Virus record (IMG/VR): IMGVR_UViG_3300012920_000059
Span: 1 to 50,732 of that record
Strand: one strand, 5' to 3'
DNA: 50,732 nucleotides
DNA from: a virus
Of this stretch, positions 5,079 through 46,602 are shown one piece after another (position 1 is the first letter of the stretch; every line of letters begins with the position of its first letter). Below the pieces are notes generated by a model that worked only from the letters and a program-made list of their open reading frames with translations, was not told the origin of the DNA and made no database searches. A program made the translations under genes and the position numbers.

Positions 5079-5675
5079 TTAAAATCGATAATGTAATCCA
5101 ACAGAAGCGTGGTCCATAAACTCACCATGTCTAGATTCTTCTAGAACCATAAGTGATAAGACCATCTGTCCTACATCTTTAGATACGGTAAATCCTAATA
5201 CGTCTTCACCGTTGTCAAACCTTCCGTAATTTAGTTCAAGGTCAACAATGGATATTAATGGTAAAGTATATCCAACTTCTAAATAAGTTGAATCTGTTTC
5301 ATCAACGTTTATAAAATAGTCTATATCTAGACCTTTATATGAACCGCCGATAACAGCTTCCTCAAATCTATCACCGAGCATTTCCATATCATAAGATACG
5401 ATACCTCCTCGGACTGACATGCTATCAGTTAAATCTACTGAATAACCTGCATGCATCACAGAATTAAGTTCATCACCATTGAAAGCTTCCAATCCTACAA
5501 ACCAACCTTTATGTCCGTAATCCAGACTTAGGCTAGTTGCTAGACCGTTGCTCATATTCACTCCTCTCCAGAATTTGTCAGAGTCAACTCCAACAGATCC
5601 ACCGACACCAGCTGATGCCATAGGAGAGATTAATATTGCGGCAAATAAAGCTGCCGTTGCAAATAGCTTATTCAT
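5079..5675 (-). CDS. secreted outer-membrane beta-barrel protein
   Basis: A 198-residue protein from ATG 5675, chosen because the longer frame starts inside the upstream gene and GAGGG precedes this ATG. Residues 1-22 form a signal peptide (MNKLFATAALFAAILISPMASA) with AxA cleavage. The mature part alternates hydrophobic and polar residues in beta-hairpins and ends LHYRF, the C-terminal phenylalanine typical of BAM-inserted barrels. The opening GVGGSVGVDSDKFWRGVNMS resembles the proteobacterial porin-like family TIGR02001 (SDYxFRG motif). The product should reside in the host outer membrane. Superinfection exclusion, receptor masking or nutrient uptake are possible roles. It is followed by the terminator at 5022. 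Confidence 0.75.
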   Translation of the reverse strand: MNKLFATAALFAAILISPMASAGVGGSVGVDSDKFWRGVNMSNGLATSLSLDYGHKGWFVGLEAFNGDELNSVMHAGYSVDLTDSMSVRGGIVSYDMEMLGDRFEEAVIGGSYKGLDIDYFINVDETDSTYLEVGYTLPLISIVDLELNYGRFDNGEDVLGFTVSKDVGQMVLSLMVLEESRHGEFMDHASVGLHYRF

Positions 5676-5677
5676 AA

Positions 5678-5854
5678 TTAGCCCTCTGCCCTTATGAGTG
5701 TGTAAACACCCCATACCACAGCGACCCAAGCTAGAAGCTTAGCTAAACCGCCAAATAATAGAACTGAACCACCAGCTGCGATAAGCAGTAGGCCGTCATA
5801 AGAAGTTCTTTCACTGACACGCGCCATTATCCAATCTTTTGCTTTTACTAACAT
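5678..5854 (-). CDS. small membrane protein next to the barrel gene
   Basis: A 58-residue protein from ATG 5854, which has GAGG 7 nt upstream; a longer frame would run into gp41. The first 20 residues are amphipathic and basic (MLVKAKDWIMARVSERTSYD). One or two hydrophobic helices follow (GLLLIAAGGSVLLFGGLAKLLAWVAVVWGVYTLI). It sits 2 nt upstream of the barrel gene start and is probably co-translated with it. No family is recognised. Confidence 0.65.
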   Translation of the reverse strand: MLVKAKDWIMARVSERTSYDGLLLIAAGGSVLLFGGLAKLLAWVAVVWGVYTLIRAEG

Positions 5855-8614: not shown

Positions 8615-8865
8615 TAGTACCTCCTTTCTGGTCTGAGTTGCATTGAAGCCTCTTTCTTTCTCCAGCGGGCTATACCTTCTGCTTTCTTTCTTTTTCTTTT
8701 TTGGTTTGGCTTTTCGTAATACTCTCTACGTCTTACTTCTTGCACAATACCAGCTTTCTCACATTGCTTTTTAAACTTACGTAATGCAACATCAAAAGGC
8801 ATCGCTTTAGGTGGACGCTTATCCCTTGGATGGCGTTTCCTTGGTCTTAGATCTACACTAGGCAA
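8614..8865 (-). CDS. rpsU: ribosomal protein bS21 homologue
   Basis: 83 residues, very basic. The central [18 protein letters not shown] and the following [20 protein letters not shown] match bacterial S21, with a 20-residue basic N-terminal extension ([19 protein letters not shown]) and a short C-terminal tail. S21 binds the 30S platform near the anti-Shine-Dalgarno region, so a phage copy could bias host ribosomes to phage mRNA. Phage S21 genes are known, including in marine T4-like phages. It overlaps the peroxiredoxin stop by 8 nt and shares TAATG with uvsX. Confidence 0.9.
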
Positions 8866-9370
8866 CGAACTCCTCCCCTGGGTTCCAACTGCATCCAGTT
8901 AGCCCTCCAGCTTTAAGAGCTTGTAATGTTCTTAGGATCTCATCAGCGTTTCTTCCTGTGTCCAAAGCATTTACACTTACATGTTTTATAATATTGTCAG
9001 GGTCTAGAATGAATGTAGCTCTTAGAGCAACTTGTTCATCTATATCTACAATACCTAATTCAGAAGCTAATAGTAGTCCACAGTCTGCACCAAGTGGATG
9101 ATTAATATCTCTTATTAATCCATTAACCTCTTTCCAAGCGGCTTTACAAAATTCATTGTCTCCAGATATACCTAGAACATCACATTCTTTTTCTACAACA
9201 TCCATTGCAGCTATTTCTGTAGGACAAATAAAAGTAAAGTCTTTTGGATAAAAGTATACGACAGACCATTCTCCTAAGAGATCTTCTTCCGTCATACTTG
9301 TCATTTCATTTCCATGAGGTTTAACTATATTCATAGCAAAGCTAGGAAATACATCATTTATTCCATACAT
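8858..9370 (-). CDS. peroxiredoxin (AhpC/TSA family)
   Basis: 170 residues with the family motif [12 protein letters not shown]; Cys49 is the peroxidatic cysteine. Near the C-terminus [12 protein letters not shown] contains Cys160, a candidate resolving cysteine as in AhpC-like 2-Cys enzymes. The segment [20 protein letters not shown] is also typical. It should reduce hydrogen peroxide or organic peroxides using a thiol donor. It is the first gene downstream of the promoter at 9403-9431 and is followed by S21 and uvsX, so it is likely an early auxiliary gene. Confidence 0.9.
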
Positions 9371-19379: not shown

Positions 19380-19835
19380 TTATAATTTATAAGACTTCTT
19401 TGTTGATGCCCTAGCAGATCCAATGTCGATCTTCCTCGGACGCCTTTCTTCTGGGAGTTCTACCCTAGCATACACTACTAATATACCATCCTCGAAGTCA
19501 GCACCATCTATTACGACAAATTCAGAGAGTCGGAAGCTCTTCTCGAATTTGCGGGATGAAATCCCTTTATACGCATATTGGCGTTCATCATCTTTTGGCA
19601 TTTCGCCTTTTACCTTCAGGATACCATCCTTGACTTCAACAGATATTGAATCTTTTTTGAATCCCGCTAAAGCCATTTCAATGAGAAATTTCTCATCGTC
19701 AATTTTGACTATGTTGTGGGGTGGATAGTTATCCGTACCGGATCGAGCAGAAGAATGAATTCTTTCTAACTCATCAAAAAGGCCTTCAAAGCCTACAAAA
19801 AGTGAACGTGGAACGTTCAAAGTATTTCTTACCAT
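19380..19835 (-). CDS. small heat-shock protein (Hsp20/alpha-crystallin)
   Basis: 151 residues. The alpha-crystallin domain spans roughly 40-135: YPPHNIVKIDDEKFLIEMALAGF, ISVEVKDGILKVKGE, YAYKGISSRKFEKSFRL (the conserved GI-x-R-x-F) and the closing ELPEERRPRKIDI. It is an ATP-independent holdase. Hsp20 genes are common in marine T4-like phages, where a role in capsid or scaffold folding has been proposed. An exact late promoter (19897-19904) and a GGAGG ribosome site precede it, so it is expressed late. Confidence 0.93.
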   Translation of the reverse strand: MVRNTLNVPRSLFVGFEGLFDELERIHSSARSGTDNYPPHNIVKIDDEKFLIEMALAGFKKDSISVEVKDGILKVKGEMPKDDERQYAYKGISSRKFEKSFRLSEFVVIDGADFEDGILVVYARVELPEERRPRKIDIGSARASTKKSYKL

Positions 19836-43849: not shown

Positions 43850-44599
43850 CTATGTTATAGTTACGTTAACTGTATAGTTATCATCTTCATCCGCTGTTGG
43901 TGGGTCAATAGCAAAATTCATTTCTTCTAATATATTTGAGCCATTCTGATCTTCATTAAAGTCTATATTAATTGTCTTAATAACTTTAGCTTCAGATTTT
44001 CCTGAATAGAATGTCATTTTCATTTGGAAGTCTAGAGTATATATTAATACTCTTCTTGCCATATAATCACCATCATATTGGTCATCAATATTTACACCAG
44101 TTAATATAATTGGCACATCTTGTTTATAATTCGTCCAACCATCTATTGGTTTAATAGTTACAGTATATTCTGGTTGGAAATAAGGTAATATCTGTTCTAG
44201 TACTTGTAACCCATCATCTTGATTCTTGGCCATAATATTTAATTGCATACCAATATTATATGGTACATGGGTTTGTATTATTTCTTTTTTAATAGAACTA
44301 TCTGCTATTGGATTTGTTATCTTATCTCTCTTTTTAATTTTCTTTGTAGAATCTACATCTAAACTAGTTATTTCAAACGATAAACGTGGAAGCTTAATTG
44401 CCACACTTGCATCAGACATTGTATCTTGGTCTATACGTGATAAGAATTTTTGTTTAGGACCATACGCTAAAGGAACTCTGATCTGATTTAATATACCACC
44501 AGAACCATCTTTTCTAACCACAGTTATATCATTAAAGAGTGTACCAAATACGGCAACTGCTTTTCTTAGTGTTGCGTTATAAAAATGAGATCCAAACAT
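43850..44599 (-). CDS. 15: tail completion/sheath stabiliser gp15
   Basis: 249 residues (T4 gp15 272). It opens MFGSHFYNATLRKAVAVFGTLFNDI, followed by GGILNQIRVPLAYGPKQKFLSRIDQD, a conserved gp15 pattern. It caps the tail tube and sheath and links to the neck. Shares TAATG with gp14. Confidence 0.93.
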   Translation of the reverse strand: MFGSHFYNATLRKAVAVFGTLFNDITVVRKDGSGGILNQIRVPLAYGPKQKFLSRIDQDTMSDASVAIKLPRLSFEITSLDVDSTKKIKKRDKITNPIADSSIKKEIIQTHVPYNIGMQLNIMAKNQDDGLQVLEQILPYFQPEYTVTIKPIDGWTNYKQDVPIILTGVNIDDQYDGDYMARRVLIYTLDFQMKMTFYSGKSEAKVIKTINIDFNEDQNGSNILEEMNFAIDPPTADEDDNYTVNVTIT

Positions 44600-45528
44600 T
44601 AGTAATTATCCGATGGGTCACCAAACGGATTAGCCTCTGTGAAGTCTAAGAATCCATCTGCACTTACTTCAAATGCCACGTTCTCTGCTCCACCATCCGA
44701 TGGGAATACGTTTTCAGAATTATCACCTATATCATATATCTTAGTTATAAAAGCTGTAACTGCAGAAGTGCCTCCAGTTAGTCCTATAGTATTTGATACG
44801 ATGAAATCTGTTGCTGTTGTTGTTCCACTAACACCAATATTAGATACTGTAATTGTTCCTGCAGTATCTGAGGTTTTAGTGACGGTTTGTACTTCGCCTT
44901 TAACTGTTATTCCAGTTGAAACGACCTGTGAAACTTCTTCACCTACTGAGTAGTGATTACCTCCACTTGTACTATATTCAATTGTTTCCTGATAAGAAAG
45001 TCTTTGTTGTGTAATATCAATTGCTTCAACACCTGTTTCAAAGTCTTCTTCATTATATTCATATAAGCTACATTGTAACTTGTAAACTGGTAGGTTTGAT
45101 AATTGATAAAATGGTTGTTCGTGTTCGACAAACATAATTTCAAAGAACTTGTTTGTCATTGGAAGGAATATTATATCACCTTCTGTTGGTACAGGATAGT
45201 CTACTTCGTTATTCCAAACCCCAATTAGTTTGTTCCATTGTCTTTTAGAAATAATAAATGTAGCTTCATCTCTTATCTCTAAACCGAACTTAGAATATAA
45301 ATCTCCTGAACCTTCAAATCCATCTGTTCCCTCTATATAAGCTTCTATAATATAGGCATCATCAAATTTAGAATTTGAAGCTTCACCTAGTACATCGTCT
45401 CTTGTAACTATGGTTCTTGGAAGATAATAACAATCTTGACCATAGATTTTCAGAGATTCAATTACAAGATCTTCATAGAGGTTTTGCTCTGATTTGACGG
45501 CTTGAGAAAAGTAAACGTTTCTAGCCAT
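44599..45528 (-). CDS. 14: neck protein gp14
   Basis: 309 residues (T4 gp14 256). N-terminal MARNVYFSQAVKSEQNLYEDLVIESLKIYGQDCYYLPR is a strong gp14 match. The C-terminal part (about 195-285) is a Thr/Val/Ser-rich beta region (VQTVTKTSDTAGTITVSNIG) not expected from T4 and may be an inserted domain on the neck surface. It lies 3 nt downstream of gp13. Confidence 0.93.
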   Translation of the reverse strand: MARNVYFSQAVKSEQNLYEDLVIESLKIYGQDCYYLPRTIVTRDDVLGEASNSKFDDAYIIEAYIEGTDGFEGSGDLYSKFGLEIRDEATFIISKRQWNKLIGVWNNEVDYPVPTEGDIIFLPMTNKFFEIMFVEHEQPFYQLSNLPVYKLQCSLYEYNEEDFETGVEAIDITQQRLSYQETIEYSTSGGNHYSVGEEVSQVVSTGITVKGEVQTVTKTSDTAGTITVSNIGVSGTTTATDFIVSNTIGLTGGTSAVTAFITKIYDIGDNSENVFPSDGGAENVAFEVSADGFLDFTEANPFGDPSDNY

Positions 45529-45531
45529 GTC

Positions 45532-46602
45532 TTATCCTGTATAAAAATCAACCGGCTCTTCCCAATTGAGTCTGGCTTCTTCAGTAAGTTTTTCTAACTC
45601 TTGTGTAGCATCATCAAATAACTGCCGACCATTAAATGTCACGCCACCAGGCATAACCATTCCTTCGAATTTAATTAAATTAGCACCCCATTGTTGTTTA
45701 ATTAATGCAGTTGTATATCTTTTTAAATAATAGTCATTATATACATCTGTATATGTATTTGGGTCTAATATCCTATAACATTCTAATACTAGATAAGTTG
45801 AATCTATCGCTAATTTATGTTCTACTCCCATATTAGCATGATTAGCACAATAAGAATATAATGTATCTGGAGCATCTTCAGCAACTACAAATGTTATTGT
45901 ATCTCCTGACACTGAAATTCCTGTATTATATTCTGACCCACCGCCATGTGTTCCATCAGCGGTTTCAGAGAATTTTAATGGATGAGCTCCTTGAGCTGCA
46001 TTGTTAAATGTATATGTAACTCCCTTTGATATACTTAATGTTTCATTTCCATTAAACCTATATTGATTTCCTGAAGATGTTGATACCACTGTAACTGTAA
46101 TTGTTTGTGGTTCAACAGCATCTGTTTCACCCTTCCAATCCATATCAATTCTTAAAGTATTTCTGTGTCTATTGAAATCTATATGTTTGTCATCTGGGTC
46201 TATAAGCATATCTAATAATGCTAAATGGTTCATAGTCATTTTATAATCGACCATTGTACCTAAAAATCCCAAAGAATAGATATCATTTAAAAACATTTGA
46301 TATTTAACATCAAACATATTTACTTGGGTTGAGCCTGAATTGTCTCTGAGTGGCATTACTCTAACTACATTTGTAACTAAATCTGGCACTGTAATATAGC
46401 CATTAGCCTGGTCTGTAGGAGTAACTAGATGCTTAAGATATACTTTCTCTACTGCATCTTGATGATATTCTTGGTAAAATTGTAAAGCTTCATCAACTCT
46501 ATCATCTACTTGGTCATCATCCACATTTATTTCTATGACAGGTGCGCCTAGTGCTCTTTTGCAATATGATATTAATGTTGCTCTACTGTTTGGTTTTGCC
46601 AT
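45532..46602 (-). CDS. 13: neck protein gp13 with an inserted cupredoxin-like domain
   Basis: 356 residues (T4 gp13 309). The gp13 part comprises residues 1-160 (VDEALQFYQEYHQDAVEKVYLKH, MTMNHLALLDMLIDP) and 268-356 (YDYYLKRYTTALIKQQWGANL-like, WEEPVDFYTG). Between them, about 165-265, lies a beta domain with HPLKF (His207), SGDTITFVVAEDAPDTLYSY, and C-A-N-H-A-N-M (Cys252, His255, Met258), the four ligands of a type-1 copper site. The domain is likely displayed on the head-tail neck; copper binding, redox or adhesion are all possible. Late promoter at 46626. Confidence 0.88.
   Translation of the reverse strand: MAKPNSRATLISYCKRALGAPVIEINVDDDQVDDRVDEALQFYQEYHQDAVEKVYLKHLVTPTDQANGYITVPDLVTNVVRVMPLRDNSGSTQVNMFDVKYQMFLNDIYSLGFLGTMVDYKMTMNHLALLDMLIDPDDKHIDFNRHRNTLRIDMDWKGETDAVEPQTITVTVVSTSSGNQYRFNGNETLSISKGVTYTFNNAAQGAHPLKFSETADGTHGGGSEYNTGISVSGDTITFVVAEDAPDTLYSYCANHANMGVEHKLAIDSTYLVLECYRILDPNTYTDVYNDYYLKRYTTALIKQQWGANLIKFEGMVMPGGVTFNGRQLFDDATQELEKLTEEARLNWEEPVDFYTG

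Follow-up and report, generated by a model that had tools for sequence, protein, structure and literature searches.

The DNA analysed here, hereafter the window, is a stretch of 50,732 nucleotides spanning positions 1 to 50,732 of IMG/VR virus record IMGVR_UViG_3300012920_000059. It comes from a T4-like marine phage in which gp13, gp14, the tail sheath stabiliser and the terminase are ordered as in T4, and its terminase is closest to that of Phage C48C1 (Kyanoviridae, 69%). The features considered below all lie on the minus strand.

45532-46602 (-): gp13 (head-tail adaptor Ad2, neck protein), 356 aa, with an inserted domain; PHROG 211 at 5e-38, T4 gp13 structures, T4-like gene order
45802-46113 (-): inserted cupredoxin-like domain, gp13 residues 164-267; clean gap in uninserted homologues, pLDDT 92.4, cupredoxin matches
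45982-45984 (-): codon of H207, predicted first His ligand, in a loop between predicted strands; invariant in alignment A2, 96% of 111 clusters
45847-45849 (-): codon of C252, predicted Cys ligand, at the end of a predicted strand; invariant in alignment A2, 94% of 111 clusters
45838-45840 (-): codon of H255, predicted second His ligand; invariant in alignment A2, 95% of 111 clusters
45829-45831 (-): codon of M258, predicted axial ligand; 92% of 111 clusters, His or Gln in a few copies
44599-45528 (-): gp14 (head closure Hc2), the gene adjoining gp13; PF11649 at 2.7e-35

Elsewhere on this strand the window encodes a small protein that starts like a signal peptide, looks beta-barrel-like and has no match in Pfam or NCBIfam (5079-5729), a phage-borne peroxiredoxin of the AhpC/TSA type (8858-9370) and a small heat-shock protein (HSP20; 19380-19835).

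The assignment of gp13 draws on a profile match to PHROG 211, head-tail adaptor Ad2, that covers residues 2-347 (5e-38), on a whole-chain model whose flanks match T4 gp13 in the solved neck complexes 9mkb and 9lu7, and on the occurrence of an adaptor fold within the neck gene order gp13-gp14-gp15-terminase. The insert comprises about 104 residues (164-267) set in one gp13 hairpin, and relatives of about 250 aa align everywhere else. At the same position T4 gp13 has a short loop only, and a profile of the domain finds no match in the T4 gp7-gp16 stretches examined; the insert is absent from T4 and from most gp13 relatives. A sequence-only reading of this DNA had placed a cupredoxin-like domain at 45837-46110, between two gp13 segments and without an equivalent in T4 gp13. 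The flanking segments and the difference from T4 are borne out, and a real domain lies at that place, but its limits were misjudged: the insert occupies 45802-46113, and the earlier interval leaves M258 (45829-45831) and the last strand outside. The full-length gp13 model is weak in its core (mean pLDDT 73), and the orientation of the insert was therefore not taken from it.

A second gp13 insertion site lies near residue 60. In the IMG/VR relatives L072 (830-1792), L075 and L081 it holds an unrelated stretch rich in repeats of the GETITGGTSG kind, and in S-CAM9 (gp13, L173 3001-4122) and S-8S56 it is filled with another sequence. The longer gp13 of S-CAM9 and S-8S56 was considered as a further carrier of the domain and rejected, the extra stretch near residue 60 not being a cupredoxin.

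Modelled alone from an alignment of 45 sequences, the insert is predicted to fold as a cupredoxin-like Greek-key beta-sandwich of eight or nine strands (pLDDT 92.4, pTM 0.82), and cupredoxins head the lists returned by both structural search programs. Foldseek matches the model to CueO, plastocyanin and rusticyanin, with antibody domains in the list too. The best VIA-align match is the nitrite reductase 2dv6 (Z 8.7, rmsd 2.4 over 89), followed by rusticyanin (8.5), AcoP (8.0) and nitrosocyanin (7.9), scores that are moderate, a Z near 8 being within reach of unrelated sandwiches that share a common arrangement. When the whole chain is searched, the first match of the insert is a nitrite reductase with the amicyanin loop CTPHPFM, whose spacing is that of the insert. 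On the DSSP elements of the model, H207 falls between strands, C252 at a strand end, and H255 and M258 in the next loop. The fold proposed from the sequence is thus upheld by a high-scoring prediction and by searches led by type-1 copper proteins, and it is predicted fold, ligand topology and sequence together that point to a cupredoxin.

The motif of the insert, Y-C-A-N-H-A-N-M, is C-x2-H-x2-M with amicyanin spacing, and with H207 before it yields the type-1 order His...Cys-xn-His-xn-Met. Translation of the 356-aa ORF places H207, C252, H255 and M258 exactly where the earlier reading had numbered them. All four rank within the top seven columns for conservation across a diverse domain family, which speaks against a chance motif; the F199, G217 and S212 columns of this family are about as conserved as the ligands. 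When copies are pooled, including a set found with a Cys-His pattern that favours C and H, and then grouped at 80% identity, the resulting 111 clusters comprise 102 with HCHM, one each with HCHH and HCHQ, and seven that have lost at least two ligands together. The equatorial H, C and H are retained in 104/111 clusters, and loss of one single equatorial ligand occurs in 0/111. The bias of the pattern scans was checked in two ways. A scan with the ligand-free middle segment of the domain, which favours copies near the consensus, recovered 69 distinct copies that all keep H, C and H (67 with Met, two with His), and tblastn in annotated phages recovered 17 copies with HCHM, one with HCHQ and eight without the set. 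Conservation of the ligands among homologues, on which the earlier reading depended, is thereby confirmed. An internal disulfide for C252 was considered and rejected, the domain having a single Cys in 103/111 clusters. Ligands that are either kept or lost in groups form the pattern that a cooperative metal site would give.

At the sequence level, the Pfam profile Copper-bind (PF00127) scores 16.3 bits on whole gp13, 20.1 on the domain alone and 19.2 in the genome search, all below its curated cut-off of 21.2, and it matches 8 of the 45 members of the domain family; annotation overlooks the domain because the score falls just below the cut-off. In single-sequence comparison with the PDB, plastocyanin is matched at chance level only, so that profiles were needed. 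Compared with cellular copper proteins from bacterial genomes, the family profile scores 23.2 against at most 18.2 in 200 column shuffles, a test used in place of hhalign probabilities, which are low (14%), and all four ligand columns coincide with those of the cellular proteins in the full-length profile alignment. In plastocyanin, azurin and amicyanin the first His is usually followed by Asn or Ser, which forms a hydrogen bond with the sulphur of the Cys. In the insert Pro208 takes this place, as Pro does in 87% of clusters; laccase-type sites have His-Pro as well. The insert is also internal to gp13, a product with no signal peptide, unlike the free, exported small proteins of the plastocyanin, azurin and amicyanin type. 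A second profile, PF25489 (At5g54830-like domain), is matched over most of its length by 12/45 family members (best 2e-7), and the window copy has no match to it. By its predicted fold and ligand set the domain belongs to the cupredoxin superfamily; its Pfam score and its Pro in place of Asn or Ser put it, as far as sequence can tell, outside the Pfam plastocyanin/azurin family. The most apt description is that of a virion-borne branch of the cupredoxins.

The gp13 insert is one copy of a mobile and promiscuous virion module. In tblastn searches it turned up in 277 phage records, of which nearly all belong to phages of Synechococcus and Prochlorococcus. Syn19 and S-RIM2 carry it in gp9, S-TIM5 in a virion structural protein encoded close to the portal gene, and Pelagibacter phage HTVC028P and an uncultured autographivirus in their tail fibres. 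Among the IMG/VR relatives, gp14 bears the domain in place of gp13 in L024 (from 3751), L072 (from 1796) and L074 (from 2054), and the domain model is matched by the predicted structures of many virion proteins from cyanophages. Cellular copies occur in two Opitutia genomes (G005 and G006; L279-L289), four in one and seven in the other, most of them within proteins of about 1,700-4,100 aa. The sequence-only reading had described a domain of the virion neck; this holds for gp13, but copies in gp9, gp14 and fibres show that the module is no neck speciality. The open-access literature searched contains no account of cupredoxin or blue copper domains in phage virions.

Large cyanophage structural proteins (L177 3259-6222, L191 1379-5252, and L185 and L186 from about 1700) combine an intact copy with further ligand-less ones. 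In BFVD, short "beta-sandwich proteins" from pithovirus and marseillevirus metagenome assemblies (A0A481Z6J5, A0A481Z7Q7, A0A481YVH3) match the domain model with E values of 4e-7 to 5e-6.

Evolution of the domain is 2-5 times faster than that of the gp13 core, with dN/dS of 0.27-0.53 versus 0.06-0.13 and an identity to the relative L095 of 46% versus 79%. Because the ligands stay while the domain changes this fast, the substitution pattern indicates that the four-residue site is under selection and makes metal binding likely. Presence of the domain on the gp13 tree requires two changes of state, and in a domain tree built from few columns, with mostly weak support, the copy of L005 is not grouped with that of the window; more than one acquisition of the gp13 insert, or a loss, is therefore likely.

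The explanation we favour, and to which we give about an even chance of being right, is that gp13 residues 164-267 constitute a cupredoxin accessory domain with a selected type-1-like site, most likely metal-binding, displayed for attachment or stability rather than for electron transfer. A compact, fast-evolving sandwich set in loops of unrelated virion proteins, the module would resemble other virion decorations, and it is from this analogy that we infer an outward position and a role in attachment: grafted into a hairpin of the neck adaptor, the domain would most likely be displayed outside the neck. In the finished particle, H207, C252, H255 and M258 would form a type-1-like site, most likely occupied by copper or some other thiophilic metal. 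Since virions are assembled in the cytoplasm, the site could be loaded there with Cu(I) or Zn; alternatively, it could take up seawater copper after lysis. Its likeliest job would be to bind something on the host, on particles or in seawater, with the metal stabilising the fold or joining in the contact. Electron transfer appears less likely, no partner being visible.

The metal might instead be a structural clamp, with Cu(I) or Zn from the host cytoplasm doing nothing beyond holding a small domain together whose function is metal-independent. The exchange of the axial Met for His or Gln would be tolerable for a clamp, loss of the ligands in groups is what giving one up would look like, and a domain with a single Cys has no disulfide to stabilise it. 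However, many small virion sandwiches need no metal, and copies without the site still persist; we regard a pure clamp as possible but unlikely.

A metal-free alternative is that the cupredoxin sandwich has been reused as a sturdy adhesion or spacer domain, its four residues being kept for packing. Mobile use across many virion proteins would fit such reuse, as would the comparable conservation of F199, G217 and S212 and the loss of the ligands in some copies, often further copies within one protein. Packing leaves unexplained both why the equatorial ligands are either retained as a complete trio or lost in groups and why the axial swaps go to other metal-binding residues, and we judge it quite unlikely to account for the site. 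The sequence-only reading had held that an intact site argues against simple fold reuse. Retention of the ligands supports that argument for the family at large, but in some copies the site is gone and the domain can still be recognised, which means that fold reuse occurs too. A redox domain, that is, a working blue-copper centre at the particle serving, for instance, oxidative protection or redox chemistry at the host surface, is very improbable: a full type-1 ligand set with amicyanin spacing and a peroxiredoxin encoded in the window would suit it, but neither a redox partner nor an electron path is visible, and the module sits in unrelated virion proteins with a surface that changes fast.

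Should the selected site of the accessory domain be loaded, a widespread group of ocean viruses would carry copper-type centres, which would matter for trace-metal cycling as well as for host recognition and the stability of virions; with the site empty, the module would still be a decoration domain common among the virions of marine phages. The intact sites in many virion proteins hint that the particles of ocean phages may carry metal. A bolder proposal, which we consider doubtful, is that neck, baseplate and fibre proteins of marine phages carry blue-copper-type centres and that the bound copper is used in attachment or entry, much as the Trojan-horse idea proposes for iron.

Among known systems, the closest in predicted sandwich and in the order and placing of His, Cys, His and Met are the type-1 cupredoxins (plastocyanin, amicyanin, pseudoazurin, rusticyanin and the N-terminal domain of three-domain nitrite reductase), to which the insert family shows a profile similarity exceeding that of shuffles and with which it shares an amicyanin-like C-x2-H-x2-M loop. 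It differs from them in being part of a virion protein, in the Pro after the first His and in scoring below the Pfam cut-off, and its copper site is a predicted one. The At5g54830-like domain of PF25489 is matched by part of the family (12/45), the window copy itself having no match. With the gp13 of T4 and of Kyanoviridae the window protein has its core in common, whereas the insert is missing in T4 and most relatives. The Ig-like domains seen in phage virions, for instance in T4 Hoc, are likewise compact sandwich decorations found in different virion proteins; they belong to another fold family and carry no metal ligands. Iron bound at HxH motifs of T4 gp37 and of marine phage fibres has been proposed to serve host entry (PMC11705849), and the insert, with a metal that we infer, would be a further case of metal on marine phage virions. 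The HxH sites are His pairs for iron on trimeric fibres, whereas that of the insert would be of the cupredoxin type.
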